Below are positions 43,335 to 54,421 of a stretch of DNA of 64,000 nt, piece after piece. The notes under the pieces are model-generated. The model searched no databases. It worked only from the letters and a program-made list of their open reading frames with translations, and was not told where the DNA came from. Positions within the stretch are counted from its first letter, which is position 1. Each line of letters begins with the position of its first letter. Made by a program: the position numbers and the translations under genes. Origin of the DNA: Anaeromyxobacter sp. Fw109-5 (lineage in GTDB: Bacteria; Myxococcota; Myxococcia; Myxococcales; Anaeromyxobacteraceae); NCBI RefSeq assembly GCF_000017505.1, contig NC_009675.1:4902501-4966500 (forward strand). The letters are read 5' to 3'.

Positions 43335-43410
43335 GCGGGAATAGCTCAGTTGGTAGAGCATCAGCTTCCCAAGCTGAGGGTCGCCGGTTCGAACCCGGTT
43401 TCCCGCTCCA
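43335..43410 (+). tRNA. tRNA-Gly (anticodon CCC)
   Basis: A 76-nt cloverleaf with encoded CCA. The acceptor arms GCGGGAA (43335-43341) and TTCCCGC (43400-43406) pair. The anticodon stem TCAGC/GCTGA flanks the loop TTCCCAA, with anticodon CCC at 43368-43370. The T-arm has GGTTCGAACCC. Its 3' 45 bp is the attachment core of the integrative element and is duplicated at 52400-52444. Confidence 0.97.
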
Positions 43411-44752
43411 GTCTCCAGGCCGGAACTTCCTGAGCTTTCGCTCGCGGGGTTCCGGCCTTTCTCTTTCCGGCGGTGGGGTCGGGTAGCAACCGGGTAGCAA
43501 ACCCGCGGGCCTCGGAGTCCGTTCGCCCTGAGCGTAGCGCCCGCGCAGCGGGCGCGGAGTCGAAGGGCGGCACCGTCTCCAGCACAGCCGCCCCGAACGA
43601 GAGCCGGTCGACCTCCGCCCGCAGGTACTCTGGTGCCAGGTGCGCGTAGACCTCGGTCGTGAGCTTCGGGTCGCTGTGGCGGAGGATCCGCTGCACCGCC
43701 GCGAGGTCCGCGCCCGACATGATGAGCAGGCTTCCGGTCGTGTGGCGCAGGTCGTGGAACCGGATCGGCCGGACCACCGGCTTCACCCAGAGCTTCCGGC
43801 CATCGGCCGGGCACCGGCGCAGGTCCTGGTCCGCCGTGGCCTCGACATGACCGCAGCCCTTTCGCCGGCAGACGTGCCGGTAGCCTTCGACGACGCCGGC
43901 GCGCCCGAGCGCGCGCCGGAGCGTGTGCTCCAGGTTCACGTCCCGCCGCATCATCGAGCCGTCCAGCTTCGGGAACACGAGCTCGGACGGCGACGCCGTG
44001 AGGGCGACCTCCAGGAACGGCACGAGCTCGGTCGCGATCGGGATGCCATCCTGGTGACCGCCCTTCGTCGTCGCCCGATCGTGCGAGCGCGCGACCGTCA
44101 AGACCTGGCGCCCGAGGTCCACGTCAGACTTGCGGAGCGCGAGCAGCTCGCCCTTCCGCAGACCCGTGTAGATCGCCGCCGCGAACAACGGACGCCAGCA
44201 CGGGTCGAGCGCCCGCAGCAGCAGCGGGACCTCGTGGACGCGCAGGAAGTCCGGCTTCCGCCTCGGCACCTTCCGCTTGCGCACGTCGAGGACGGGGTTC
44301 GGCCCCGGGTACCGCCCCGCGCGCCGAGCCGCGTTGAACGCGCGGCTCAGGTACCCGCGGAGATGGTTCACCATCTGCGGCGACACCTCGCCCGTCTTCG
44401 CCTGCAGGAACGCCTCGACGCGCCCCGCGGTCACCGCGGTGAGCGGCAGCGATGCGAGCTCCGACGCGAGGAAGTGGACGCGGATCGCGCTCTCGTTCGT
44501 CGCGTGAGAGGCGAGCGGCTTCGAGTACGTGTCGAGCCACCACTGGAGCAGCTCGGCGAGGGGCCCGCCGCCGTCCTCGGGGAGCCCGACCTCGACGCCG
44601 AGCCGGACCCGCTCGGCGCGCCGCTCGAGTTGCCCCTGGAGCTGCCGCGCCTCGGTCTTGGTGCGCGCGGCGCAGGCCTTCGCGCGCCAGCGCCCCGCCT
44701 CGTCCTTCCACCGCAGGTACCACGTGCCGCGCTTCAGGTACGGAGCCGCCAT
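43361..44752 (-). CDS. int: Tyrosine site-specific integrase
   Basis: A 463-residue recombinase with an N-terminal AP2-like arm-binding part, a SAM-like core-binding domain (about 62-150) and a catalytic domain. Catalytic residues visible: R199 (TGLRKGE), K230, H333 and R336 (RFHDLRHT), H359 (ILRHSD) and Y369 (TEVYAHL). A zinc-ribbon-like insertion (C295, C300, C314, with the fourth Cys replaced in CPADG) sits inside the catalytic domain. The tail after residue 385 is non-conserved. It runs through a REP-like palindrome, the arm sites and the att core, and stops inside the tRNA at 43361. In the excised circle this frame would continue into the HTH at 52074-52399. Confidence 0.95.
   Translation of the reverse strand: MAAPYLKRGTWYLRWKDEAGRWRAKACAARTKTEARQLQGQLERRAERVRLGVEVGLPEDGGGPLAELLQWWLDTYSKPLASHATNESAIRVHFLASELASLPLTAVTAGRVEAFLQAKTGEVSPQMVNHLRGYLSRAFNAARRAGRYPGPNPVLDVRKRKVPRRKPDFLRVHEVPLLLRALDPCWRPLFAAAIYTGLRKGELLALRKSDVDLGRQVLTVARSHDRATTKGGHQDGIPIATELVPFLEVALTASPSELVFPKLDGSMMRRDVNLEHTLRRALGRAGVVEGYRHVCRRKGCGHVEATADQDLRRCPADGRKLWVKPVVRPIRFHDLRHTTGSLLIMSGADLAAVQRILRHSDPKLTTEVYAHLAPEYLRAEVDRLSFGAAVLETVPPFDSAPAARALRSGRTDSEARGFATRLLPDPTAGKRKAGTPRAKAQEVPAWRLERETGFEPATLSLGS
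43366..43410 (+). repeat. attL core (45-bp direct repeat, copy 1)
   Basis: Identical to 52400-52444. It begins at TTCCCAAGCTGAGGG in the anticodon loop and ends with the encoded CCA, so integration leaves the tRNA intact. Weaker similarity (TCTC, then AGGCCGGAA) continues beyond the core into the terminator on both sides. Confidence 0.92.
43417..43468 (+). terminator. Rho-independent terminator behind tRNA-Gly
   Basis: AGGCCGGAAC (43417-43426) pairs with GTTCCGGCCT (43449-43458) and is followed by the pyrimidine-rich TTCTCTTTCC. It lies on the element side of attL. A related hairpin follows attR, so the element brought its own copy of the tRNA terminator. Confidence 0.75.
43481..43500 (+). 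repeat. Arm-type integrase site pair, left end
   Basis: Two direct copies of GGGTAGCAA (43481-43489 and 43492-43500), 11 bp apart, start 71 bp inside the attL core. The same pair with the same spacing occurs inside attR (52263-52271 and 52274-52282). Paired direct repeats at one helical turn, near both att cores, are typical of the arm sites of tyrosine integrases. Confidence 0.6.
43524..43569. repeat. REP-like palindrome within the integrase C-terminal tail
   Basis: CGCCCT (43524-43529) and AGGGCG (43564-43569) bracket a perfect inner hairpin, GCGCCCGC-GCA-GCGGGCGC (43537-43555). It is the best-formed member of the family also seen at 32198, 58401 and, degenerate, 17331. It lies in frame in the non-conserved tail of the integrase. 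Confidence 0.65.
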
Positions 44753-44779
44753 GCTGCACCCGCCTTGCTGCCCGGCGCG

Positions 44780-45001
44780 TCAGCGCCGGTGATCCACCTT
44801 CGGCCCGCCGCCGGACCCGAGCGCGAACGCCCGTACCCGCTCCGGAACGAACCGCACGAGCCCACCGACCTTGAGATACGGGAGCAGCCCGGCCTCCGCC
44901 TTCTGGTAGACCCACGAGCGGCTGACCTTGAGGTAGCGCGCGACGTCGCGCGCGTCCCAGAGCGTCTCGATCCCATCCGGCCCGTGGTCCATGCCGCTCA
45001 C
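44780..45001 (-). CDS. Small HTH excisionase/AlpA-like DNA-binding protein
   Basis: A 73-residue protein with a MerR-like helix-turn-helix of the excisionase/HTH_17 type: LWDARDVARYLKVSRSWVYQKAEAGLLPYLKVGGLVRFVPERVRAF. Such proteins direct excision or control element genes. The GTG at 45001 overlaps the upstream gene's stop; an in-frame ATG lies at 44992. It is 27 bp upstream of the integrase on the same strand, forming a three-gene operon from the promoter at 45356-45384. Confidence 0.8.
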   Translation of the reverse strand: MSGMDHGPDGIETLWDARDVARYLKVSRSWVYQKAEAGLLPYLKVGGLVRFVPERVRAFALGSGGGPKVDHRR

Positions 45002-45318
45002 CTCTTCGTCTGCTTCGCGTCGAACGCGGGCCCCTTCTCCCGGACGGCGATGCTGCGCTCGTAGAGCAGGTGCAGGAGGTAGTCGGCCGGGTCGAGTCCG
45101 AGCGCCTCGCGGTCCTGGTCGAGCAACCGCGCCGCCGGCGGCGGCAGGCCGAAGTGGTTGCGGAGCCCTTCGAGCACGCGCGTCACGTAGCCCGTGAGGT
45201 CGCTCCCGCGTCTCGTCGCCTCGCCCTTCAAGAACATGACGAGGTCCCGGGACATCCGGAACGTCTGCATCAGCTTCTCGGCGGACGGGAGCGCTGCGTC
45301 GGGCGGCTTCTTCGCCAT
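44998..45318 (-). CDS. Small element protein, possibly DNA-binding, unknown function
   Basis: A 106-residue protein. The segment FRMSRDLVMFLKGEATRRGSDLTGYVTRVLEGLRNHFG looks like a ribbon-helix-helix-type or plasmid-partition-type basic region, followed by an acidic helical tail. The ATG at 45318 is chosen because the promoter at 45356-45384 would start transcription about 30 nt upstream. The longer open frame (to 45651) is antisense to the Nmad3-like gene. It is the first gene of the integrase operon. Confidence 0.7.
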   Translation of the reverse strand: MAKKPPDAALPSAEKLMQTFRMSRDLVMFLKGEATRRGSDLTGYVTRVLEGLRNHFGLPPPAARLLDQDREALGLDPADYLLHLLYERSIAVREKGPAFDAKQTKR

Positions 45319-45355
45319 GCTCGTTGGCCTCTGTACTAGCGTTGTATGTACGTTA

Positions 45356-45384
45356 TCTATACAGCGCGATTCGTCGCGTTTCAA
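45356..45384 (-). promoter_or_regulatory. Probable promoter of the integrase operon
   Basis: On the minus strand TTGAAA (45384-45379) and TATAGA (45361-45356) are separated by exactly 17 bp. Around it is an AT-rich patch (TTGTATGTACGTTATCTATA) in otherwise GC-rich DNA. Transcription would start near 45349. Confidence 0.7.
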
Positions 45385-45458
45385 TGGAGCGCCCCAACGG
45401 TGATCCGTCGCAACGCGCGAGAGGCGCTGCGTCCGCCGGTGAGCGATGATGCTCGTCG

Positions 45459-46193
45459 ATGCGCGCCTACCTCGTCCGCGTCGGCATCGACCAGGCGTTC
45501 GGCGGCTGGAACGCGCCGGTGGACCCGGGCACGAACGAGTTCGTCTACGTGCCCATCCCGGAGGGCTCGCCGCAGCGCCCCCGGCTCGAGACGCCGTACG
45601 AGCTGGTCCGTCCGGCGCTGGCGCGCTTCGCGGACCGTCACCGCGACGCACCGCTCCGAGCCATCCAGCTCCCCGCCGAGCTTGCGCGGGCGGACATGCA
45701 CCTCGACCCCGACTTCGAGGCGCTCACGTACGGCGACACCGAGCGGAGGGGCCGCGGCCTCGCCGACCTCGAAGCCGGCGATCTCCTCGTCTTCTACGCA
45801 GGCCTCCGGCCGGTCAGCCCGTGCGCGCACACGCTCCTCTACGCGCTCATCGGCCTGTACCGCGTCCGCGACGTGGCGCGCCTCGACGCCGTCCCTCAGG
45901 CTCGGTGGCCAGAGAACGCGCACACCCGCCGAGCGGACCCGCGCGCCAGCGACGTCATCGTGCGCGCCGACCGGCGTGCCAGCGGGAGGCTGCGGAGGTG
46001 CCTGCCCGTCGGCGAGTTCCGCGACCGTGCCTACCGCGTCACCCGGGAGCTCCTCGAGGTGTGGGGCGGGCTCTCGTGCCGCGACGGCTACCTCCAGCGC
46101 AGCGCGGTCCCCCCACGGCTTCTCGACCCCGCCCGCTTCCTGGCGTGGTTCGAACGCGCCGCGCCCGAGCTCGTCAGCTCGAACAACCCTTGA
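45459..46193 (+). CDS. Nucleotide-modification-associated domain 3 (Nmad3)-like protein
   Basis: A 244-residue protein. The opening MRAYLVRVGIDQAFGGWNAPV followed by PIPEGSPQ resembles the start of Nmad3-family proteins, which are found beside DNA-modification enzymes and are suspected to act on modified nucleotides. Other stretches (DMHLDPDFEALTYGD, LEAGDLLVFYAGL, RCLPVGEFRDRAYR) also fit that family. No catalytic residues are assigned. The gene overlaps the convergent gene at 46174-46707 by 20 bp. Assignment is from memory of the family pattern and needs a profile search. Confidence 0.6.
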   Translation: MRAYLVRVGIDQAFGGWNAPVDPGTNEFVYVPIPEGSPQRPRLETPYELVRPALARFADRHRDAPLRAIQLPAELARADMHLDPDFEALTYGDTERRGRGLADLEAGDLLVFYAGLRPVSPCAHTLLYALIGLYRVRDVARLDAVPQARWPENAHTRRADPRASDVIVRADRRASGRLRRCLPVGEFRDRAYRVTRELLEVWGGLSCRDGYLQRSAVPPRLLDPARFLAWFERAAPELVSSNNP

Positions 46194-46707
46194 CCGGCTT
46201 CGCCGCCGGCGACGGGCGGCAGCTCCCGCCCTTCCGGATCGCGGGCCCCCGCGTCCCGGCTTGCGGAGCACCCGGCGCGGCGACGCCCTCGCCTTGGTTC
46301 CCGCGTGACGGTGGTGCGTCCTTCGCGAGCGCGAGCATCGCGTCGATCTCCTTCTGCTCCTCCCTGCTGACGTCGTTCATCACGAGCCGGACATTGTTCG
46401 CGTACATCCTGTCGGCCAGCTTGGGCGCGAGGTCGAGGAACCCCGGAGCGTCGACGCCGAACTGGAGGAAGTGATCGAACGTAACGAGCGGCCCGCGCTT
46501 GCCGACCTCCGCCTTGTGCGGCCCGATGCCGATCCAGTTCACCTTCCCGGCGATGCCCCACCCCTCCGGCTCCTCGCCGATCCCGCCCACGCCGATGACC
46601 GCTTCGTACCCGTACCCGCGCACCTGGCCCATGCAGTCATGGATGCCGAAGCGCCCCTCCGCATCCGGATCCCCGTTGTGCGTTCGCTTGTAGACGAGCG
46701 TCCTCAC
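46174..46707 (-). CDS. Unknown protein of the element
   Basis: About 177 residues. The conserved-looking part is RTLVYKRTHNGDPDAEGRFGIHDCMGQVRGYGYEAVIGVGG, then KVNWIGIGPHK and GPLVTFDHFLQFG. It looks like a compact alpha/beta domain with a DCMG motif, and the C-terminal 45 residues are low-complexity. No family is named with confidence. Its partner in a convergent pair is Nmad3-like, so a role in nucleotide modification or defence is possible. The GTG at 46707 is preferred because GAGGGGG lies five bases upstream; a TTG at 46755 is the alternative. Confidence 0.6.
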   Translation of the reverse strand: MRTLVYKRTHNGDPDAEGRFGIHDCMGQVRGYGYEAVIGVGGIGEEPEGWGIAGKVNWIGIGPHKAEVGKRGPLVTFDHFLQFGVDAPGFLDLAPKLADRMYANNVRLVMNDVSREEQKEIDAMLALAKDAPPSRGNQGEGVAAPGAPQAGTRGPAIRKGGSCRPSPAAKPVKGCSS

Positions 46708-46790
46708 GGTGTCCCCCTCGCCGATCTGCCCGACCCCCTCCACCCTCAAACTCAACCCTTCCCCTGATCCCTACACCCATTTGCTCCATT

Positions 46791-46808
46791 TTGAACCACG
46801 TGGTTCAA
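46791..46808. repeat. Palindrome 1
   Basis: TTGAACCACGTGGTTCAA, a perfect 18-bp palindrome. Its flanks (ACCCATTTGCTCCATT before, GAG after) are nearly identical to those of palindrome 3 at 47146. Confidence 0.85.
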
Positions 46809-46859
46809 GAGTTGCCCGGCCCCGCCGCGCTTCATCACTTGAGATCCAAGGACGCCAGC

Positions 46860-46903
46860 AGCCCGACCCCCCGATCCTGTGGTTGGGAGCGGGGGGTCGG
46901 GCT
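46860..46903. repeat. Long hairpin, 14-bp perfect stem
   Basis: AGCCCGACCCCCCG (46860-46873) pairs perfectly with CGGGGGGTCGGGCT (46890-46903) around a 16-nt loop. There is no T-run, so it is not a standard terminator. It may be a structured RNA or a protein-recognised DNA hairpin. Confidence 0.75.
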
Positions 46904-46981
46904 GATGGCGCGCCTCACGCCGCGGTGAACGCCGCTCCGGGCGGCGGGGCCGGGGCGCCGCGATCTCGCGCAGTTACGACG

Positions 46982-47029
46982 CCAATCCTGATCCCAACCC
47001 TGTTACCAATCCCGCTCCCAATCCTGTGG
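46982..47029. repeat. Four 12-bp tandem repeats (iteron-like)
   Basis: CCAATCCTGATC, CCAACCCTGTTA, CCAATCCCGCTC and CCAATCCTGTGG follow each other without gaps. The invariant part is CCAAyCCyG. A small hairpin (CCTGTG/CACAGG, 47023-47044) overlaps the last unit. Confidence 0.7.
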
Positions 47030-47070
47030 GCGCCGGGGCACAGGGGTCAGGAACACCCCTTCCAAGCATT

Positions 47071-47088
47071 TTGGACCACGTGGTCCAA
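47071..47088. repeat. Palindrome 2 (compensated variant)
   Basis: TTGGACCACGTGGTCCAA, a perfect 18-bp palindrome. It differs from palindromes 1 and 3 by one base in each arm, changed symmetrically, so symmetry is conserved over sequence. Confidence 0.85.
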
Positions 47089-47145
47089 CGCGACGACCTT
47101 CGGGCCGCGCTCGGCGACGCCCGCGCTGTACCCGTTTGCTCCATT

Positions 47146-47163
47146 TTGAACCACGTGGTTCAA
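47146..47163. repeat. Palindrome 3
   Basis: TTGAACCACGTGGTTCAA, identical to palindrome 1 and 355 bp from it in direct orientation, with almost identical flanks. Confidence 0.85.
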
Positions 47164-47199
47164 GATAGCGCATCGGGCTATGGGGTGGTCAGCCCGCGA

Positions 47200-50043
47200 T
47201 CACCTCCGCCGGAACAACAGAATGTCGTTCCTTGTGATCGCGTGGTGCGCGTTCAACCGTGCCTCCTTCGTCACCGTGATCGGCACGCACGCATCGAGAG
47301 TCCACCCGAGCCGATCTCCCATCTCTTGAATAGCCTTCGAGCTCTGGATTGTGACTTCACCGGCGCCGGTATGCGTCACGTTGTCACCGATCACAATCGC
47401 TATGGCTCCCCCCGGGCGCACGGCACGGTCCAGGTTCGAAAGAGTCCGCCACATCGACGTGAAGTACCGGATGAGCAAGGACGCCATGTTCTTTCGACGG
47501 AACCCGACATCCGCGCCCGAATTCTGCCGGTGGATCTTCTTTGCGATCGCACATGCCGTCCGGGACCCGATCGTCGCATCGAGGCCGTCGATGGCCGCCT
47601 CGAGTGCCGCTCGGTCTCGCTGCCGAATCTCGCGTGATCCCGTTAGCTGCATCTCTAGCGAGCTGCGCAGGTTGCTGGGAATATCGAGCAGTGACAGCAA
47701 GCTCAGCCGATCTGTGTCGATATACGGAAGGGCCGTCGCATAGGGGGGACTCGTCACCACGGCGTCATACGCCTCGGCGCCGACCCGCAAGTCCGCGCCC
47801 TCGGTACCTGAGTCCCGCGACACGACGTGTGCGGGCGGGAACAGGTTTGGGGCCGCTGCCGCCTGTTCTCCGAAATGACGACACCGATCGCGAAAGCGGA
47901 CCACCCTGGCGCGCAGGAGCATCTCGACTGGCGCATCGGCGAGCGGCTCCTTCCGGCGCCTCACGCGCAGATCGGCCGGCTCCTGGTGAGACACCTCTCG
48001 AATCAGACTGCTGAGCAACACCTTCAGCAGAAGCTGCGCCGTCTCGTTCGGCACCTCTTCGACCTGCCTCCTAACTTTGCCTAGACGACGCGCGACCGGA
48101 CGCGGGAACCAACTCAGGACCTCCTCGCGCGTCGCGGCGGGAAACACCTCAAGGTCCGTGTCCGTCGCGGGCGCTCCGAGCTGCTCCAAGAACGACCGCA
48201 GTGCGCGGTCGAGCAGCAGTGCGTTCTCCGTCGCGACCGCAGTTTTGGCGCGCGAGATGAGGACTGCGAGTGGATTTAGGTCGAATCCGACTGCGCGGTG
48301 GCCGCTGAGCTGGGCCTCGAGGAGCACCGTCCCACTGCCGCAGAAGGGATCGAGGATTCGGCAACCCGGCTGTGAGACGGAGAGGTTCAGGAGCGTCTTC
48401 GCGAGCTGCGGGTAGAACTTTCCCTTGTAGTCGTGAATCCCATGGGTCACGTACTTCGGGTCTCGCCGCGCCGCTGCCCCGTTCTCGAGGCGAGCCTGCC
48501 ACGTCTGCCAACCGGTGCACGCAGCCCCGACCGTGAGCTCAGAGGTAAGGGCGAGGCGGCGAGCTCGGTCAACGCGGTAGCAGTCCAACGTCGCCGTCAG
48601 TTTGCCCTCGGCCGCCGAAACGGGCGCGACGCCGACCACCCTTTCAACTTCCCGGAGCCTGAGCTCATGCTCGTACGGCCACAACCGGTACTTCGGCAAC
48701 TCGAACGTCACCTTCAAGCTGCGCGGCGGCTTCCTGAAAATGACGATATGCTCGGCGCCCAACCGGCGGGCGGCCGGAACGAAGGAGCGGCGAGTTGCGT
48801 GAATCTTCCGCTCGACTGCTCCAAGCCACTCCAGTCCGACTTGAGTGCCGATCTCACCGAGCCGGGCGGCCGAATCAACTTCCTTGCCATCGAAGACCGC
48901 TCCGCCGATTACCATGGCACAGTACCTGCCAGGCCGGAGACGCCGCGCAATCCCGGCGAGACATCCGAGCATTTCGTCGGCGTACAGATCGAACCCGCGC
49001 TTCTCACGCTGATGGCGAAGATGCGAGCCAATCTCTGCTGATCCCAGTACGCGCGGGTCGAACCCGAGCCAGAAAAGCCTGAACCGATGGTACAGGTGAT
49101 AGTCCGTGGCGTTCGCGTAAGGCGGCGACGTGACGATGAGGTCGACCGACTCCGGCTCAGGAGCGTCCGGCGACGTGTCAAGTTGCCTTAGGTCGAGAGT
49201 CGCGACGCGAGCGCGGCGGTAGCCGAGAAGTCGCTCGAGGGGCTCGTGCTCTACGAGAATCCGCTCAAGGGCGGTCGCGAACAACCGCAGGACGTCTCCG
49301 GGGCGATGCCCTTTGTCACGCCGCGTGTAGCGCGTTTCGGAATCCTGATTCGACACCGCTACAACGATCGAGGACAGAGCGACCTCAGACACCAGCCGAG
49401 CGTCGTCATCCGCGATCGCGCTCGCGAGCTGCCGCACGTACGCGAGTTCGCGTGTAGCCTGCGCGGTGAACCACTGTTCATAGTTCGGGATGTCCGGCAC
49501 AAAGCCCTTCGCTGCCCCCCATGCACGCTCAAGGAAGCCTTCGAGGCCGCGGTCGAGCGCGAGGGCGGCAACGCGCTGCCCGAGCGCCCTCAGCACGTCG
49601 CGCTGCTCAGGTCCAAGCGCGGTACACTTCGCGCGTGCGATGTGGCCGGCCAAGGGGTTTGCGTCGGTAGAGAGTGCCTGACGTCCCAGCAGAAGCGCCT
49701 CTAGCGCTGTCGTCCCGCTCCCGCCAAACGGGTCCCACACGAGCTCACCGGGAAGCGATAGCGCAGCAATGAGGTTGGCCGGGATCTGTGGAATGAACTT
49801 CGCGGGATACGGATGCAGATCGTGGCCGAGGTAGCCGGTCTCGTCGTGCGTGAACGCCCAATCGATCGCGCCGAGCGCCTGCATCACGTCCGCGGGATTC
49901 GACAGGTCCTCGAGGCGCGAGAGCTGTGGCAGCCGCGGCTGCGAGTACACCGGTTCGGCGACGAACAGGTTGAAATCCGCGTTCCTGGCTGGGCGTGAGC
50001 GAGCGGGCATTCTGGGAAGGTGCATACCAGCCCAGACTGACAT
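47200..50043 (-). CDS. Two-domain DNA methyltransferase (fused N4/N6 amino-MTases)
   Basis: A 947-residue protein with two complete amino-methyltransferase domains. Domain 1 has HDLHPYPAKFIPQIP, the SAM motif DPFGGSG (104-110) and catalytic TSPPY (305-309). Domain 2 has HDYKGKFYPQLAK, DPFCGSG (565-571) and TSPPY (764-768). The nuclease partner is divergent, 60 bp away. Two methyltransferases are what an asymmetric (type IIS-like) recognition site needs, one per strand, as for the PLD-type enzyme BfiI. The ATG at 50043 is used; in-frame ATGs at 50025 and 50013 are possible. Base composition is less GC-rich than the chromosome, suggesting transfer. Confidence 0.92.
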   Translation of the reverse strand: MSVWAGMHLPRMPARSRPARNADFNLFVAEPVYSQPRLPQLSRLEDLSNPADVMQALGAIDWAFTHDETGYLGHDLHPYPAKFIPQIPANLIAALSLPGELVWDPFGGSGTTALEALLLGRQALSTDANPLAGHIARAKCTALGPEQRDVLRALGQRVAALALDRGLEGFLERAWGAAKGFVPDIPNYEQWFTAQATRELAYVRQLASAIADDDARLVSEVALSSIVVAVSNQDSETRYTRRDKGHRPGDVLRLFATALERILVEHEPLERLLGYRRARVATLDLRQLDTSPDAPEPESVDLIVTSPPYANATDYHLYHRFRLFWLGFDPRVLGSAEIGSHLRHQREKRGFDLYADEMLGCLAGIARRLRPGRYCAMVIGGAVFDGKEVDSAARLGEIGTQVGLEWLGAVERKIHATRRSFVPAARRLGAEHIVIFRKPPRSLKVTFELPKYRLWPYEHELRLREVERVVGVAPVSAAEGKLTATLDCYRVDRARRLALTSELTVGAACTGWQTWQARLENGAAARRDPKYVTHGIHDYKGKFYPQLAKTLLNLSVSQPGCRILDPFCGSGTVLLEAQLSGHRAVGFDLNPLAVLISRAKTAVATENALLLDRALRSFLEQLGAPATDTDLEVFPAATREEVLSWFPRPVARRLGKVRRQVEEVPNETAQLLLKVLLSSLIREVSHQEPADLRVRRRKEPLADAPVEMLLRARVVRFRDRCRHFGEQAAAAPNLFPPAHVVSRDSGTEGADLRVGAEAYDAVVTSPPYATALPYIDTDRLSLLSLLDIPSNLRSSLEMQLTGSREIRQRDRAALEAAIDGLDATIGSRTACAIAKKIHRQNSGADVGFRRKNMASLLIRYFTSMWRTLSNLDRAVRPGGAIAIVIGDNVTHTGAGEVTIQSSKAIQEMGDRLGWTLDACVPITVTKEARLNAHHAITRNDILLFRRR

Positions 50044-50103
50044 TCGGCCGGTGGCCGCGACCGGCAGGTCGTCGTACGCTCCCCCCTTCGGAGGGAGCCG
50101 ATC

Positions 50104-51315
50104 ATGCCCGCATTTGAGTTCCTGAGCCCGCTCGATCAGCCGTTCGCGACAGCACGCGCTGCAGAATGGCTGAAGAATGCGCTCACATCGAAGAAGTACA
50201 ACGAGTTCCTAGCCGCTGTCGCGTTCGCGAAAGAGGGCGCGCTGAAGCGGCTGCTTCCAGCACTCGATGCGTTCAGGAAGGGGGGAGGGAACGCCGAGAT
50301 CGTCTTCGGTATCGATCAACAGGGCACGTCCCGGCAGGCGCTCGAGCTGGCCTTGACCTCGCTCGACGCATCGTACGTGTGGAATCACCCTAGCCCGTAC
50401 ATCACATTTCACCCCAAGGCATACCTGTTCAGCGGCCATGATGCGGCTCTGGCTATCATCGGGTCCTCTAACCTCACGGTGGGCGGCCTCGAGACGAACA
50501 GCGAGATGGTCGCCTCGATTGCCTTCGACTTGCCTAACGAGAACGCCGCGTGGACGAAGGCTCAGTCGTGGTGGAAGCCGCTCATCGGGCACGCAAATTG
50601 CGCAAAGCTCACCGCAGACTTGATAAAGGAACTTGATGCGCGAGGTTTGCTACTGGACGAGACTGCTCCTGGCTCGCATGGCTGCCCCCCTCCCAAGGGC
50701 GAAAAAGGCACAGCGACAGGCGCCCCCTACCCGTTCCCATTTACGAAGGTAGTTCCGCCCTCGAGCGCGCCGACGGCAGGCAAGGGGAAGTCTGCCGCGG
50801 CCGGCAGTGCCAAGCCGATTTCGGCGACCGCCAAGGCGTACCAGCCGTCCGCGCTGCTGATACAGATCATTCCGCACGAAAATGGCGAGATCTTTCTGAG
50901 CGTGACCGCCGTTAACCAGTATCCGGCATTCCTCGGGTGGCCATTCAAGGGGAAGACTACACCGAAGAAGAAGGGCAACAAGCCGTACCCGATGCTGCAG
51001 CCGGATCCAATCACAAATTGGCGCCTGTTCGATAAGTCAGGATCCGTGGCTCAGGCGCTCACCGGCTGGAATCTGAACACGATTTACTACGACAAGAAAT
51101 CGGAGATCCGGATAACGGTTCCGCCCTCGCTCGCGGCAGCCATCCCCGAGTACTCGCTGCTTGAGATGCGGCGCGCCTCGCAGGGCTCCGGTGTCGACTT
51201 TTACTGTGACGTGTACCCCAATGGATCTCCTCAGTACGCGTCGATGATCGGCGCGTGTACGCAGACGCTGCCAAGTGGAGGCAAGCCGGTCGCTCGGAAG
51301 TACGGATGGATTTGA
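50104..51315 (+). CDS. PLD-superfamily restriction endonuclease (NgoFVII/BfiI type)
   Basis: A 403-residue nuclease. One phospholipase-D catalytic motif is visible: H103 and K105 in TFHPKAYLF, with N123 in GSSNLTVGGLETNSE. A single motif implies a dimeric active site. After a low-complexity linker (about 195-240) comes a C-terminal domain (QIIPHENGEIFLSVTAVNQ, WRLFDKSGSVAQALTGWNLNT) resembling the B3-like DNA-recognition domain of such enzymes. GGAGG precedes the ATG. It is divergent from the two-domain methyltransferase, together forming a type II restriction-modification system. Confidence 0.85.
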   Translation: MPAFEFLSPLDQPFATARAAEWLKNALTSKKYNEFLAAVAFAKEGALKRLLPALDAFRKGGGNAEIVFGIDQQGTSRQALELALTSLDASYVWNHPSPYITFHPKAYLFSGHDAALAIIGSSNLTVGGLETNSEMVASIAFDLPNENAAWTKAQSWWKPLIGHANCAKLTADLIKELDARGLLLDETAPGSHGCPPPKGEKGTATGAPYPFPFTKVVPPSSAPTAGKGKSAAAGSAKPISATAKAYQPSALLIQIIPHENGEIFLSVTAVNQYPAFLGWPFKGKTTPKKKGNKPYPMLQPDPITNWRLFDKSGSVAQALTGWNLNTIYYDKKSEIRITVPPSLAAAIPEYSLLEMRRASQGSGVDFYCDVYPNGSPQYASMIGACTQTLPSGGKPVARKYGWI

Positions 51316-51395
51316 AAGCGAAGTAGGGCGCCGCCAGCTCACGTCCGCGTAGGCGCGAGGGCGCGCCTCACCGGTGCCGAGCCGCCTCAGGCCGG

Positions 51396-52034
51396 CTACC
51401 CGGCGCGAGAACGGGTCCGCGCCCTCTTCGGCTCGGCCACCGACAGCCAGAGCTCGATGGCGTCCTTCGCCATCCGCTTCGCCTCGGCGAGGTCGTCGCC
51501 TTCGGTGATGCAGCAGGGGAGCTCGGCGACCTCGACCGTGTAGCCGCCGGCCTCGAGGTCCGGCGTCAGGACCGCCTTGTACCCGCGTCCGCGCACTCGG
51601 ATCGTCGCCGCGCGCGGCGCGCTGATCTCGCTCACGCCGCGCTCGAGGTGGCGAGCGACCTTCGCGACGCTGATGGCGAGCACGACCTGCCCCTCGCCGG
51701 TGGCCTCGATGAGCTTGGCCGGATCGTCGGTCAAGGCGAACACCTTCTTGCCCTGAGCCGTCAGCGCGAGCGTCGCGAGGGGCTGGTCCGCGTGGCTGCG
51801 CAGCCACTTCACGGCGCGCCGGATGGTCTGGACGCTCACGCCCGCCTCGCGGAGCTGCCGCACGACCCGGAGCGCCACCAGGTCCGCGAACGAGTAGACG
51901 CGCCGGGATCCGCGCCCGGCCGCCTGCCGCACGGACGATCGGACGAGCCCGGTCCGCGCCCAGTGATCGAGCTGACGGTAGCTGATGCCGGTGAGGGACA
52001 GGACCGCCCTGGCGCCGAAGCCGGTCGCAGACAT
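51396..52034 (-). CDS. MerR-type HTH fused to a HicB-like antitoxin domain
   Basis: A 212-residue protein. Residues about 12-80 are a MerR-like winged helix (LTGISYRQLDHWARTGLVRSSV, SRRVYSFADLVALRVVRQLREAGVSV). Residues about 90-135 are a linker domain. Residues 151-198 have the HicB partial-RNaseH-like pattern YKAVLTPDLEAGGYTVEVAELPCCITEGDDLAEAKRMAKDAIELWL. HicB usually neutralises the HicA mRNA interferase and represses its own operon, but no HicA-like gene is adjacent. It could be a stand-alone regulator of the element. Confidence 0.8.
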   Translation of the reverse strand: MSATGFGARAVLSLTGISYRQLDHWARTGLVRSSVRQAAGRGSRRVYSFADLVALRVVRQLREAGVSVQTIRRAVKWLRSHADQPLATLALTAQGKKVFALTDDPAKLIEATGEGQVVLAISVAKVARHLERGVSEISAPRAATIRVRGRGYKAVLTPDLEAGGYTVEVAELPCCITEGDDLAEAKRMAKDAIELWLSVAEPKRARTRSRAG

Positions 52035-52073
52035 AGACGCTGGATAACACGCGTGTAGTTCGGCTCAACGTCG

Positions 52074-52399
52074 TCACGGGTGACCCCGCGTCGCCAACGC
52101 CTGGAGGGCCGTGGCGGGGATGCGGACGACGTTCAGCACGCGCACGTGGACGAGCTCCCCGCGCGCGCAGAGCTTGTAGACGGTCGCCGTCGAGACCCGC
52201 AGGCGCCGGGCCACCTCCCGGACGGTCAGGAACTTCTCGGACCCGGCGTCGCGTCCGGCTTCGGGTAGCAAGGGGGTAGCAAAATCTCCGCGAACGGCCC
52301 CGACCGGCTGGGACCGCTGGACTCCGGCGTCCGTCTCAACTCCAGTAGTTGCAAGAGGTTGCGAACCTCCGTGAACGCCTGGACTGCGCGTGAACCCGT
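52074..52399 (-). pseudogene. Excisionase-like HTH segment, detached integrase C-terminus in the integrated state
   Basis: The open frame encodes a helix-turn-helix EKFLTVREVARRLRVSTATVYKLCARGELVHVRVLNVVRIPATALQALA and ends at 52074. Inside the element it has no ATG; only a TTG at 52271 or an internal GTG could start it. The frame runs backwards through the attR core in the same phase as the integrase uses in attL. In the circular form the integrase would therefore end with this domain (570 residues). It may be a genuine switchable C-terminus, an independent xis using TTG, or a coincidence of GC-rich frames. Confidence 0.55.
52263..52282 (+). repeat. Arm-type integrase site pair, right end
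   Basis: GGGTAGCAA at 52263-52271 and 52274-52282, the same sequence, orientation and 11-bp spacing as at 43481-43500. It ends 117 bp inside the attR core. Confidence 0.6.
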
Positions 52400-52444
52400 T
52401 TCCCAAGCTGAGGGTCGCCGGTTCGAACCCGGTTTCCCGCTCCA
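52400..52444 (+). repeat. attR core (45-bp direct repeat, copy 2)
   Basis: Exact copy of the tRNA-Gly 3' part at 43366-43410. The sequence 5' of it does not continue the tRNA, so this is a fragment and not a second tRNA gene. Confidence 0.92.
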
Positions 52445-52451
52445 ATTCTCG

Positions 52452-52500
52452 AGGCCGGAATTCGGTGGCTTGGTCGCCCCGGGTTCCGGCCTTCGTCTTT
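52452..52500 (+). terminator. Original chromosomal tRNA-Gly terminator
   Basis: AGGCCGGAA (52452-52460) pairs with TTCCGGCCT (52484-52492), followed by TCGTCTTTCC. It is the counterpart of the terminator at 43417 and marks the chromosomal side of the insertion. Confidence 0.65.
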
Positions 52501-52560
52501 CCGGGGATCACATCGGAGGCCGTCGAGATCCGCACGGAAGCCCGCTGCTACTCTTCCCCG

Positions 52561-53684
52561 GTGGAGCATCGTCCGAAGGGCCTCGCGCCGATCGACCCGC
52601 TCTCCGTTCCCCTGCCACACGGAACGGAGGTGACGACGCGCGTGGAGCGCCTCGCCGGCGAGCGCCGCGTTCCCCAGGGCGTCGTCGGCCGAGTCATTGC
52701 GATACGAGACGACGGCTTCGACGTCCTCATCACCGGGATCGGAACGCTGCGGTACGCGCGGGACGAACTCGTTCCTCGCCGGCCTGGCCAGGTCCGGTTC
52801 GCAGAGCAGCGTGCGGCGGACTGGGAGAGGCTCCGGCCCTGCGTCGTCCTCGAAGCCACGGTCGGATCTCGTGCGTGGGGCCTCGCGGACGAGGGGTCGG
52901 ACACCGACCTTCGTGGCGCGTTCGTGCTGCCGTTCCCGCGGACGGCCGGTCTCGTCGATCCGCCGCACACGCTGACCAGCGCCGACGGCGCGACGCGTTC
53001 GTCTCCGCCGACCTCTTCGGCAGCTTCGGGCGGCATGCGGTCAGCCAACTCGGGAAGCTAGCGCGTTCGGCGCGCCTCGCGGAGCACCGCGACCTCGTCC
53101 TCGACTGGCTCCGGGAAGAGCCCCCGCCCGACCTGGACGCCGTCGCGGCGAGGCTCGCGCAGATCTCGCCGCGTCCCGCGCCGACGAAGGCAGCCGCGAT
53201 CCTCGCGGCGAAGGAGTACGTGAAGCAGCTCTATCGGTCGCTTCACGATCTGGGCGTCGTCGAGGCGAACGACTTCGCGTCGCTCGTCCGGTACGCGCGC
53301 GACGGCGGAAAGCAGCCCGAGCCGGCGCGCGAGCTCCGACCGAAGAACGCATACAACCTGCTACGCCTCATCCACGTCGCGACGGGGTGGCTGCGAACCG
53401 GCGCACCGGAGCTCGAGATGCAGGGCGCCGTCCGCGATCGGCTCCTGGCGGTGAAGCGGGGCGAGGTCGGCCTCGATGCCATGCTCACCGAAGCCGAGGC
53501 GCTCGTCCCCGCTCTCGAGGCCGCGCGCGACGCGACCCGCCCGCGCCGCCCCGACCTCGACCGGGCCGACGCGCTGTTCCGGCGCGTCGCCGAGGAGGTC
53601 GCCCGGCGATGGCTGGAGCGCGTTCCGGGACCGTTCGGCGCCGACGCTCCGCCCGCACCGGCCGTTCGGGAGGTCAGCTCGTGA
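52561..53684 (+). pseudogene. RlaP-type nucleotidyltransferase with internal deletion and frameshift
   Basis: The N-terminal part, from a GTG at 52561, reads in one frame to about 52985 and contains the nucleotidyltransferase motif EATVGSRAWGLADEGSDTDLRGAFVLPF. The frame then runs into unrelated sequence and stops at 53061. A second frame, offset by two bases, picks up at about 52988 with RDAFVSADLFGSFGRHAVSQLGKL and continues to 53684 as the helical C-terminal domain. Relatives have roughly 50-60 further residues between these points, so a deletion with frameshift is more likely than a point change. It is overlapped by 4 bp by the next, intact relative. Confidence 0.72.
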
Positions 53685-54421
53685 TCGACAGGGTGCTCGA
53701 CTCGAAACAGCGCGCGGCCGCCGGGCGGCTCCTCGACCAGGAGTCCGCGGTGCGTCGGAACGTGGTGGTGTCCCTGTCCGGCGCGCACGCGTACGGATTC
53801 CCGTCCCCGGACTCCGACCTCGACCTGAAGGCGATCCACGTCGCGCCCACCGAGAGGCTCCTCGGGCTGTCGCCGCCGCCCCAGAGCGCGCCCGACCGGA
53901 TCGAGCTCCTCGACGGCGTCGAGGTCGACTATTCGTCCAACGAGATCCAGCCCGACCTCGTCGGCATCCTCCAGGGCAACGGAAACTTTATCGAACAAGT
54001 CCTGTCGCGATTCGTCCTGCGGTCGTCACCCGAGCACGACTCGGTCCGCGAGGTCGTGAAGAGGAGCCTCTCGCGCCGCCTTCACCGGCCCTACCGCGGC
54101 TTCGCGACGGGCCAGCTCCGAGAATGGGAGAAGGACGGATTCCGCTCCGCGAAGAAGCTCCTGTACGTGCTGCGAACGACGCTCACCGGGACACACGCGC
54201 TCCTGACGCGCGAGATCGAGACGGACGTCATCCTCCTGCTCGACGCCCACGGGTTTGGAGCAGCCCGCGAGTTGGTGGAAGCGAAGCGTCGCCGCGAGAA
54301 GTCGGAGCTGGCTTCCGAAGTCGCCGAGCGCTGGAAGGGAACCGTCGGCCGAACTTTCGACCTGCTCGACTCGGCGCTCGAGCGGTCCGAGCTACCGGAG
54401 GAGGCAACGCTGCAGAGGTGA
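53681..54421 (+). CDS. RlaP/PF10127-type nucleotidyltransferase
   Basis: A 246-residue protein of the DNA polymerase beta-like nucleotidyltransferase superfamily. The motif SLSGAHAYGFPSPDSDLDLKAIHVAP supplies the helical-turn and two-Asp metal site. GVEVDYSSNEIQPDLVGILQGNGNFIEQVLS follows, and the C-terminus is helical. These enzymes are often next to defence or RNA-repair genes; the substrate is unknown. The GTG at 53681 overlaps the stop of the decayed relative upstream by 4 bp, so the pair was once a coupled operon. Confidence 0.8.
   Translation: MIDRVLDSKQRAAAGRLLDQESAVRRNVVVSLSGAHAYGFPSPDSDLDLKAIHVAPTERLLGLSPPPQSAPDRIELLDGVEVDYSSNEIQPDLVGILQGNGNFIEQVLSRFVLRSSPEHDSVREVVKRSLSRRLHRPYRGFATGQLREWEKDGFRSAKKLLYVLRTTLTGTHALLTREIETDVILLLDAHGFGAARELVEAKRRREKSELASEVAERWKGTVGRTFDLLDSALERSELPEEATLQR

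Follow-up and report, generated by a model that had tools for sequence, protein, structure and literature searches.

A 64,000-nucleotide stretch of DNA (the window) from a soil bacterium related to Anaeromyxobacter (Anaeromyxobacter sp. Fw109-5, contig NC_009675.1) contains an integrated 9.0-kb element bounded by two identical att cores, one of which lies inside a tRNA-Gly(CCC) gene. The element encodes a tyrosine integrase (Int) whose stop codon falls within the tRNA gene, a separate excisionase-like gene directly upstream of int, and a set of cargo genes. The coordinates of these features are collected in Table 1.

Table 1. Features of the integrated element (positions within the window)
Feature	Position	Strand	Description and basis
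tRNA-Gly (CCC)	43335-43410	+	target gene, intact at the int end of the element; ARAGORN
int-proximal att core	43366-43410		45 bp, exact repeat; read on the - strand as the last complete codons of Int (ETGFEPATLSLG)
Tyrosine integrase, integrated form	43361-44752	-	463 aa; stop TGA at 43363-43361; Pfam PF00589 (E 1e-21) and Int_N
Putative P-arm integrase sites	43479-43501	-	direct repeat TTTGCTACCCGGTTGCTACCCGA inside the int C-terminal coding region; matching pair on the other side of the core
Excisionase-like gene (xis candidate)	44780-45001	-	Pfam HTH_17 (E 6e-8); conserved position
Cargo of the element	45459-52034		Nmad3-domain protein 45459-46193 (+); double type II-like DNA methyltransferase 47200-50043 (-); PLD/NgoFVII-like 50104-51315 (+); MerR-HicB-like 51396-52034 (-)
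Tail frame joined to int in the circular form	52077-52399	-	108 codons; stop 52076-52074
HTH domain of the joined protein	52086-52232	-	Pfam HTH_17 (E 1.8e-11); predicted winged HTH (AF2)
Putative P'-arm integrase sites	52261-52283	-	TTTGCTACCCCCTTGCTACCCGA inside the linker-coding part
Distal att core	52400-52444		45 bp, identical to the int-proximal core

The Int reading frame crosses the att core

Both att cores lie in the frame of the integrase. Joining Int through the core into the distal flank, as in a circle, gives an open frame of 570 residues, consisting of 462 residues to the end of the core followed by 108 more that include an HTH_17 domain, with the predicted joint peptide ETGFEPATLSLGNGFTR. 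The initial annotation had proposed that the circular form encodes this Int-HTH protein while the integrated form encodes a shorter Int, and our analysis supports this interpretation. Its statement that the HTH has no ATG of its own was also correct, as no ATG lies in frame between the core and the HTH; however, a TTG is present at 52271 and, inside the HTH, a GTG at 52214. The tail HTH is not the only excisionase-like protein of the element, because a separate HTH_17 gene lies directly upstream of int (similar in 25 of 32 elements). The empty attB was identified in a sister genome of the genus (genome G008, C1:92075-92255) as one unbroken 93% match across the tRNA and right flank.

AF2 modelling of the tail returned block-mean pLDDT values of 79-94 for residues 51-100, and the closest folds were BldC, Pukovnik Xis and RdfS (6ama Z 9.8; 4j2n Z 9.0; 8dgl Z 7.9). 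A naturally joined ORF (L146, in contig G046C6) was predicted by AF2 to contain Int, a disordered segment (386-495) and a winged HTH. This contig may be a junction of two tandem elements and not a circle, since its ends do not overlap and the arm repeats differ on the two sides.

Conservation of the joined frame in Myxococcota

To investigate whether the open frame is a coincidence, attP was rebuilt for 32 elements in Myxococcota. Of these, 27 (the window included) have an HTH beyond the distal core, and a frame-blind HMM scan of three frames placed the HTH in the Int frame in 27 of 27 cases. About 17 of the 27 were not HMM seeds, and the 27 represent 19 Int clusters at 80% identity, six tRNA types and two more sites without a detected tRNA. 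The spacer between core and HTH is open in 26/27 in the Int frame, compared with 13/27 and 10/27 in the two other frames and 6.8/27 expected from shuffles. Frame breaks were found in one reconstructed element (G062C10, with a stop 5 codons after the core, in a small element without a detectable xis) and at one tandem-type junction (G045C199), which is out of frame. Three elements (G003, G045C266 and G001) have open tails without an HTH; elements whose Int stops before the core (G108 and G092a) have no HTH there.

The HTH is under purifying selection, with dN/dS mostly 0.1-0.26 (range 0-0.42), against 0.03-0.25 for the catalytic domain and 0.25-1.13 for the linker. Codon-position GC of the window HTH (0.74/0.48/0.98) resembles that of its catalytic domain (0.74/0.49/0.95), while the linker has 0.76/0.63/0.59. 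Int and HTH identities correlate (Mantel r 0.76, p about 0.0005), indicating that the two are co-inherited. No conserved start of the HTH was found: only 7 of 27 have an ATG at the edge of the HTH, and 21 of 27 have no ATG in the linker. Arm-type repeats flank the core in nearly all elements.

A scan of viral contigs with the window Int alone found no relative, and with an alignment only two close ones were found, neither with an HTH in the Int frame; a tblastn search of the window tail in phages found nothing. A second HTH locus in the same genome (1.21 Mb) has an att pair at tRNA-Pro, but the tail frame meets a stop 5′ of the core and no homolog of this Int was found in the 40 kb searched.

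Comparison with known systems

An integrase edited by its own reaction, which the initial annotation treated as a departure from known repressor switches, has been shown before. In Myxococcus phage Mx8 (Tojo 1996; Magrini 1999) attP lies inside int, and integration replaces a 112-residue tail by 13 residues, giving a less active enzyme (PMC4701971, PMC6070905). Here as in Mx8, the catalytic part is kept and a separate excisionase gene lies upstream (uoi in Mx8, also HTH_17). However, the Mx8 tail shows no HTH match in Pfam, Mx8 Int was not among the listed phage matches of this Int (the four Myxococcus records are Mx9 and Mx4), and Mx8 is a 49.5-kb phage while the window element is a 9-kb cargo element. 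The closest phage integrase is that of Myxococcus phage Mx9 (29.8% identity over 84%; AY247757, OQ709411; Julien 2003). In phage DNA, Mx9 Int is Phage_integrase plus a C-terminal HTH_17, and a segment matching tRNA-Gly at 32 of 34 positions lies inside int between them, although the core-to-HTH distance is much shorter and no clear arm repeats were found.

Streptococcal ICEs in rumA likewise have an att site inside the integrase gene and a C-terminus that differs between free and integrated forms, but they use a serine integrase and a protein-coding target, with no HTH module described there (PMC4701971). In BPs-type integration-dependent immunity, integration also shortens the product of the gene that holds attP, but that gene is the repressor and its long form is unstable through an ssrA-like tag (PMC4557955), whereas here the gene is the recombinase and the long form gains a DNA-binding domain. 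The arrangement also differs from the SSV-type partitioned integrase, as the catalytic domain lies wholly on one side of the core. The tail shares its fold with wHTH recombination directionality factors (Pukovnik Xis, RdfS, lambda Xis) and BldC, but those are small separate proteins, and it is the gene upstream of int that fits this description. What is new here is that the swapped module is a conserved wHTH, found in many small elements at six tRNA types.

A proposed switch between two forms of Int

We consider it likely that the element carries attP within its integrase gene such that, in the circle, the int frame runs through the P-arm sites, the tRNA-Gly core and the P'-arm sites into a winged HTH. 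Integration splits this gene at the core, leaving the HTH as a start-less fragment 9 kb away, and excision restores it. The frame, the att copies, the empty attB, conservation across relatives and selection on the HTH are established by sequence; no transcript, protein or circle was observed, and that the joined protein is made is inferred. It is also inferred, mainly by analogy with Mx8, that the tethered HTH acts as a built-in accessory DNA-binding domain at attP that favours integration when the element is free, and that its loss gives a less active Int, so that excision depends on the separate Xis and the integrated state is stable. This functional direction is about as likely as not; it rests on Mx8, whose tail has no HTH.

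Alternatively, the joined protein may be made but the tail may work as a regulator, with the HTH of free-form Int binding the int/xis promoter or another operator and controlling expression or copy number until integration removes it. The closest folds include regulators (BldC, MerR family) as well as excisionases, in the window a MerR-like gene follows the HTH after 39 nt on the same strand, and integration-dependent regulators with attP in the gene are known (BPs repressor, PMC4557955). We regard this as possible but unlikely, because the tail sits directly behind the P'-arm in the attP of most elements and is tied to Int, the element already has a separate HTH_17 gene next to int, and no conserved gene follows the HTH (14 on the same strand, 7 on the opposite strand). 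It is considerably more doubtful that the HTH is an independent small gene at the left end of the element whose frame relation to int means nothing. The TTG in the window and the ATG at the HTH edge in some relatives mean that separate translation in the integrated state is not excluded, and an unfused arrangement exists in phage MinS1, where int stops before the core and an HTH lies beyond the P'-arm in another frame; nevertheless, the shared and open frame and the lack of conserved start positions argue against it. Finally, the near-neutral linker dN/dS in several pairs and the weak codon signal in the linker could suggest that the open frame is a by-product of GC-rich DNA and of the repeated arm sites. 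This is very improbable and already largely refuted by the frame test, as the HTH is under selection in the Int frame and, in four elements, the arm repeats lie in different frames on the two sides, yet the joined frame is still open.

A broader reading, slightly less likely than not, is that a whole family of small integrative elements uses its attachment site as a domain switch. In this view attP DNA doubles as the code for a disordered linker and only the free circle makes an integrase with a tethered Xis/BldC-like winged HTH, so that free and integrated elements would run recombination with two different enzymes (integration-proficient Int-HTH, excision-limited Int plus Xis), a directionality control written in the gene's own structure.

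Practically, genome annotation splits these genes, so integrated sequences hide the full-length integrase, and integration vectors built from such elements would need the circular form. Directionality of tyrosine recombinases is usually explained by separate accessory proteins. Here the recombinase gains or loses a DNA-binding domain through its own reaction, an arrangement conserved in at least 26 elements from six myxobacterial families at six kinds of tRNA gene. This turns the Mx8 observation, cited as one of very few cases (PMC4701971), into a testable general strategy, and it gives natural pairs of enzymes, with and without tail, for biochemical comparison.

The integrase reading frame and the att cores

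The integrase frame was found to end at a TGA inside tRNA-Gly(CCC), and a 45-bp exact repeat marks the att cores, which lie 9034 bp apart. Joining the int side of the first core to the element side of the second gives a 570-aa frame in which the last 108 codons lie beyond the core. The tail carries a Pfam HTH_17 domain (E 1.8e-11), while Int is a Phage_integrase with an Int_N domain. Between the core and the HTH the in-frame starts comprise no ATG, no GTG and one TTG, and a GTG lies within the HTH. In addition, a related genome of the genus (G008) has the uninterrupted site, with one 93% match running over the tRNA and the right flank. The initial annotation, which predicted that excision would change the C-terminus of the integrase, is therefore confirmed with exact coordinates. 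Int also carries a Cys-rich, zinc-ribbon-like insertion in its catalytic domain (HVCRRKGCGHVEATADQDLRRCPADGRKLW), which is conserved in relatives and in the integrase of phage Mx9 and would serve as a signature of the family.

Coordinates of features in the window and of two loci outside it
Feature	Coordinates	Strand	Remarks
Integrase frame	43361-44752	-	463 aa
tRNA-Gly(CCC)	43335-43410		contains the TGA of the integrase frame
First att core	43366-43410		45-bp exact repeat
Second (distal) att core	52400-52444		45-bp exact repeat
Repeat before the core	43479-43501		TTTGCTACCCNNTTGCTACCC; inside int
Repeat after the core	52261-52283		TTTGCTACCCNNTTGCTACCC; inside the linker code
TTG	52271		in frame, between core and HTH
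GTG	52214		within the HTH
Second HTH_17 gene	44780-45001		directly upstream of int
Possible restriction-modification or defence cargo	47200-50043 and 50104-51315		947-aa protein that looks like two type II DNA methyltransferases in one chain, beside a PLD/NgoFVII-like protein and an Nmad3-domain protein
MerR-type HTH fused to a HicB-like domain	51396-52034	same as the HTH tail	starts 39 nt after the stop of the tail
Frames right of the element (chromosomal side)	52548-54421		motifs such as GSRAWGLADEGSDTDLRG and GAHAYGFPSPDSDLDLKAIHV; look like nucleotidyltransferase genes
Uninterrupted site in a related genome	G008:C1:92075-92255
Second att pair in the same genome (L012/L013)	G000:C1:1209697-1232457		46 bp, tRNA-Pro, 22.7 kb apart

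Conservation of the joined frame in related elements

To determine whether the joined frame is conserved, Int homologs were searched in 195 genomes of the phylum and 87 loci with upstream sequence were assembled; elements were not chosen for having an HTH. For 32 elements (the window included) both att copies could be found, as repeats of 18-93 bp that nearly all overlap a tRNA gene antisense to int, and attP was rebuilt by the same rule. In 30 of them the core lies inside the Int reading frame. Critically, a frame-blind HMM scan identified an HTH within 900 nt beyond the distal core in 27 elements, and in 27 of 27 it is in the Int frame, with 26 of the 27 frames running open to it. Although the HMM was seeded with 11 tails seen in the first batch, about 17 of the 27 elements were not seeds. 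The 27 elements fall into 19 clusters at 80% Int identity, so that a one-in-three chance per cluster gives about 1e-9. Between the core and the HTH the Int frame is open in 26/27, compared with 13 and 10 for the other two frames and 6.8 expected from shuffles. The targets are tRNA-Gly, Arg, Pro, Met, Asp and Val, plus two sites where no tRNA was detected.

To assess selection, pairwise Nei-Gojobori estimates of dN/dS were made, giving 0 to 0.42 for the HTH (mostly 0.1-0.26), 0.03-0.25 for the catalytic domain and 0.25-1.13 for the linker. The codon-position GC of the window HTH (0.74/0.48/0.98) equals that of its catalytic domain (0.74/0.49/0.95), whereas the linker does not show it. Moreover, the identities of Int and HTH correlate over the 27 elements (Mantel r 0.76, p about 0.0005), although in the integrated state they lie at opposite ends. 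Of the 27 linkers, 21 have no ATG in frame and 8 have neither ATG nor GTG, while 7 elements (one subgroup plus the element G021C9) have an ATG at the HTH edge. Thus no own start is conserved, but in that subgroup separate translation is possible.

Several elements depart from this arrangement. The element G062C10 has a stop five codons after the core and no detected xis. Two others (G108 and G092a) have Ints that stop before the core and have no HTH there, and a further three (G003, G045C266 and G001) have open tails of 90-109 residues without an HTH. In G046C6 (loci L050/L146), Int, core and HTH occur in one 549-codon stop-to-stop frame without a tRNA, but unlike arms suggest a junction of two tandem elements; G045C199 (L147/L051) is a similar junction out of frame. 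Together with L084 (G046C52), these look like tandem elements at one tRNA site, where the Int of one element is followed by the core and the HTH tail of another, in frame in two and out of frame in one, and tail exchange between elements could arise this way. The locus G194C165 reads through a tRNA-like motif into an HTH without a stop up to the contig end. The second att pair in the same genome has the same kind of HTH tail after a tRNA-core motif, but the frame meets a stop before the core and no homolog of this Int was found in the 40 kb searched, suggesting that it is probably a decayed or different element. Finally, in Microcystis phage MinS1 (MZ923504) the int stops before a tRNA-like core, and an unannotated HTH lies between int and the next gene, beyond the core and a second arm repeat, in another frame than int; this may be the unfused form of the same layout.

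Organization of attP and the predicted tail domain

In nearly all elements a tandem direct repeat of about 2 x 9 bp with an 11-12-bp period lies about 60-70 bp before the core and again about 115-125 bp after it, identical or nearly so within an element and different between elements. We infer that these are arm-type integrase sites. Interestingly, in four elements the repeats lie in different frames on the two sides, yet the joined frame is open. AF2 modelling of the window tail gave a confident winged HTH after a low-confidence linker, and modelling of a naturally joined ORF (L146) gave the Int domains, a disordered stretch at 386-495 and then a wHTH. These models suggest that the site DNA encodes a disordered linker, which would be how recombination sites and coding can share the sequence. 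The nearest solved folds are BldC, Pukovnik Xis and RdfS, all DNA-binding proteins of the MerR/Xis type.

A gene like the second HTH_17 gene of the window was detected in 25 of 32 elements, including all five without an HTH tail, indicating that the tail is an additional domain rather than the only excisionase candidate.

Relation to known systems and possible role of the tail

In Mx8, attP lies in int, integration replaces 112 C-terminal residues by 13 and the prophage form is less active; such att positions are called very rare (PMC4701971; PMC6070905), and Islander allows for them (PMC4383910). The closest phage integrase to the window Int is that of Mx9 (29.8% identity), which in Mx9 phage DNA is a 548-aa Phage_integrase plus C-terminal HTH_17, with a stretch matching tRNA-Gly at 32 of 34 positions in between. 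BPs phages use the same logic for a repressor (PMC4557955).

Expression of the joined protein and the role of its tail are inferred. We consider it most likely, although only about as likely as not, that tethered HTH domains help the free element to integrate, because the tail exists only when attP exists, sits beside the P'-arm sites and is of the Xis/BldC type, and because the long form of Mx8 is the more active one. The next most likely possibility, which we regard as doubtful, is that the tail regulates int/xis transcription in the free form. In the circle, the gene for the MerR-HicB-like protein would lie directly downstream of int-HTH.

Taken together, the data indicate that the arrangement is real, conserved and selected. 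While the switching principle is known, the exchanged wHTH domain and its spread over many small elements, of which we found no description in the open-licence papers searched, appear to be a new variant.
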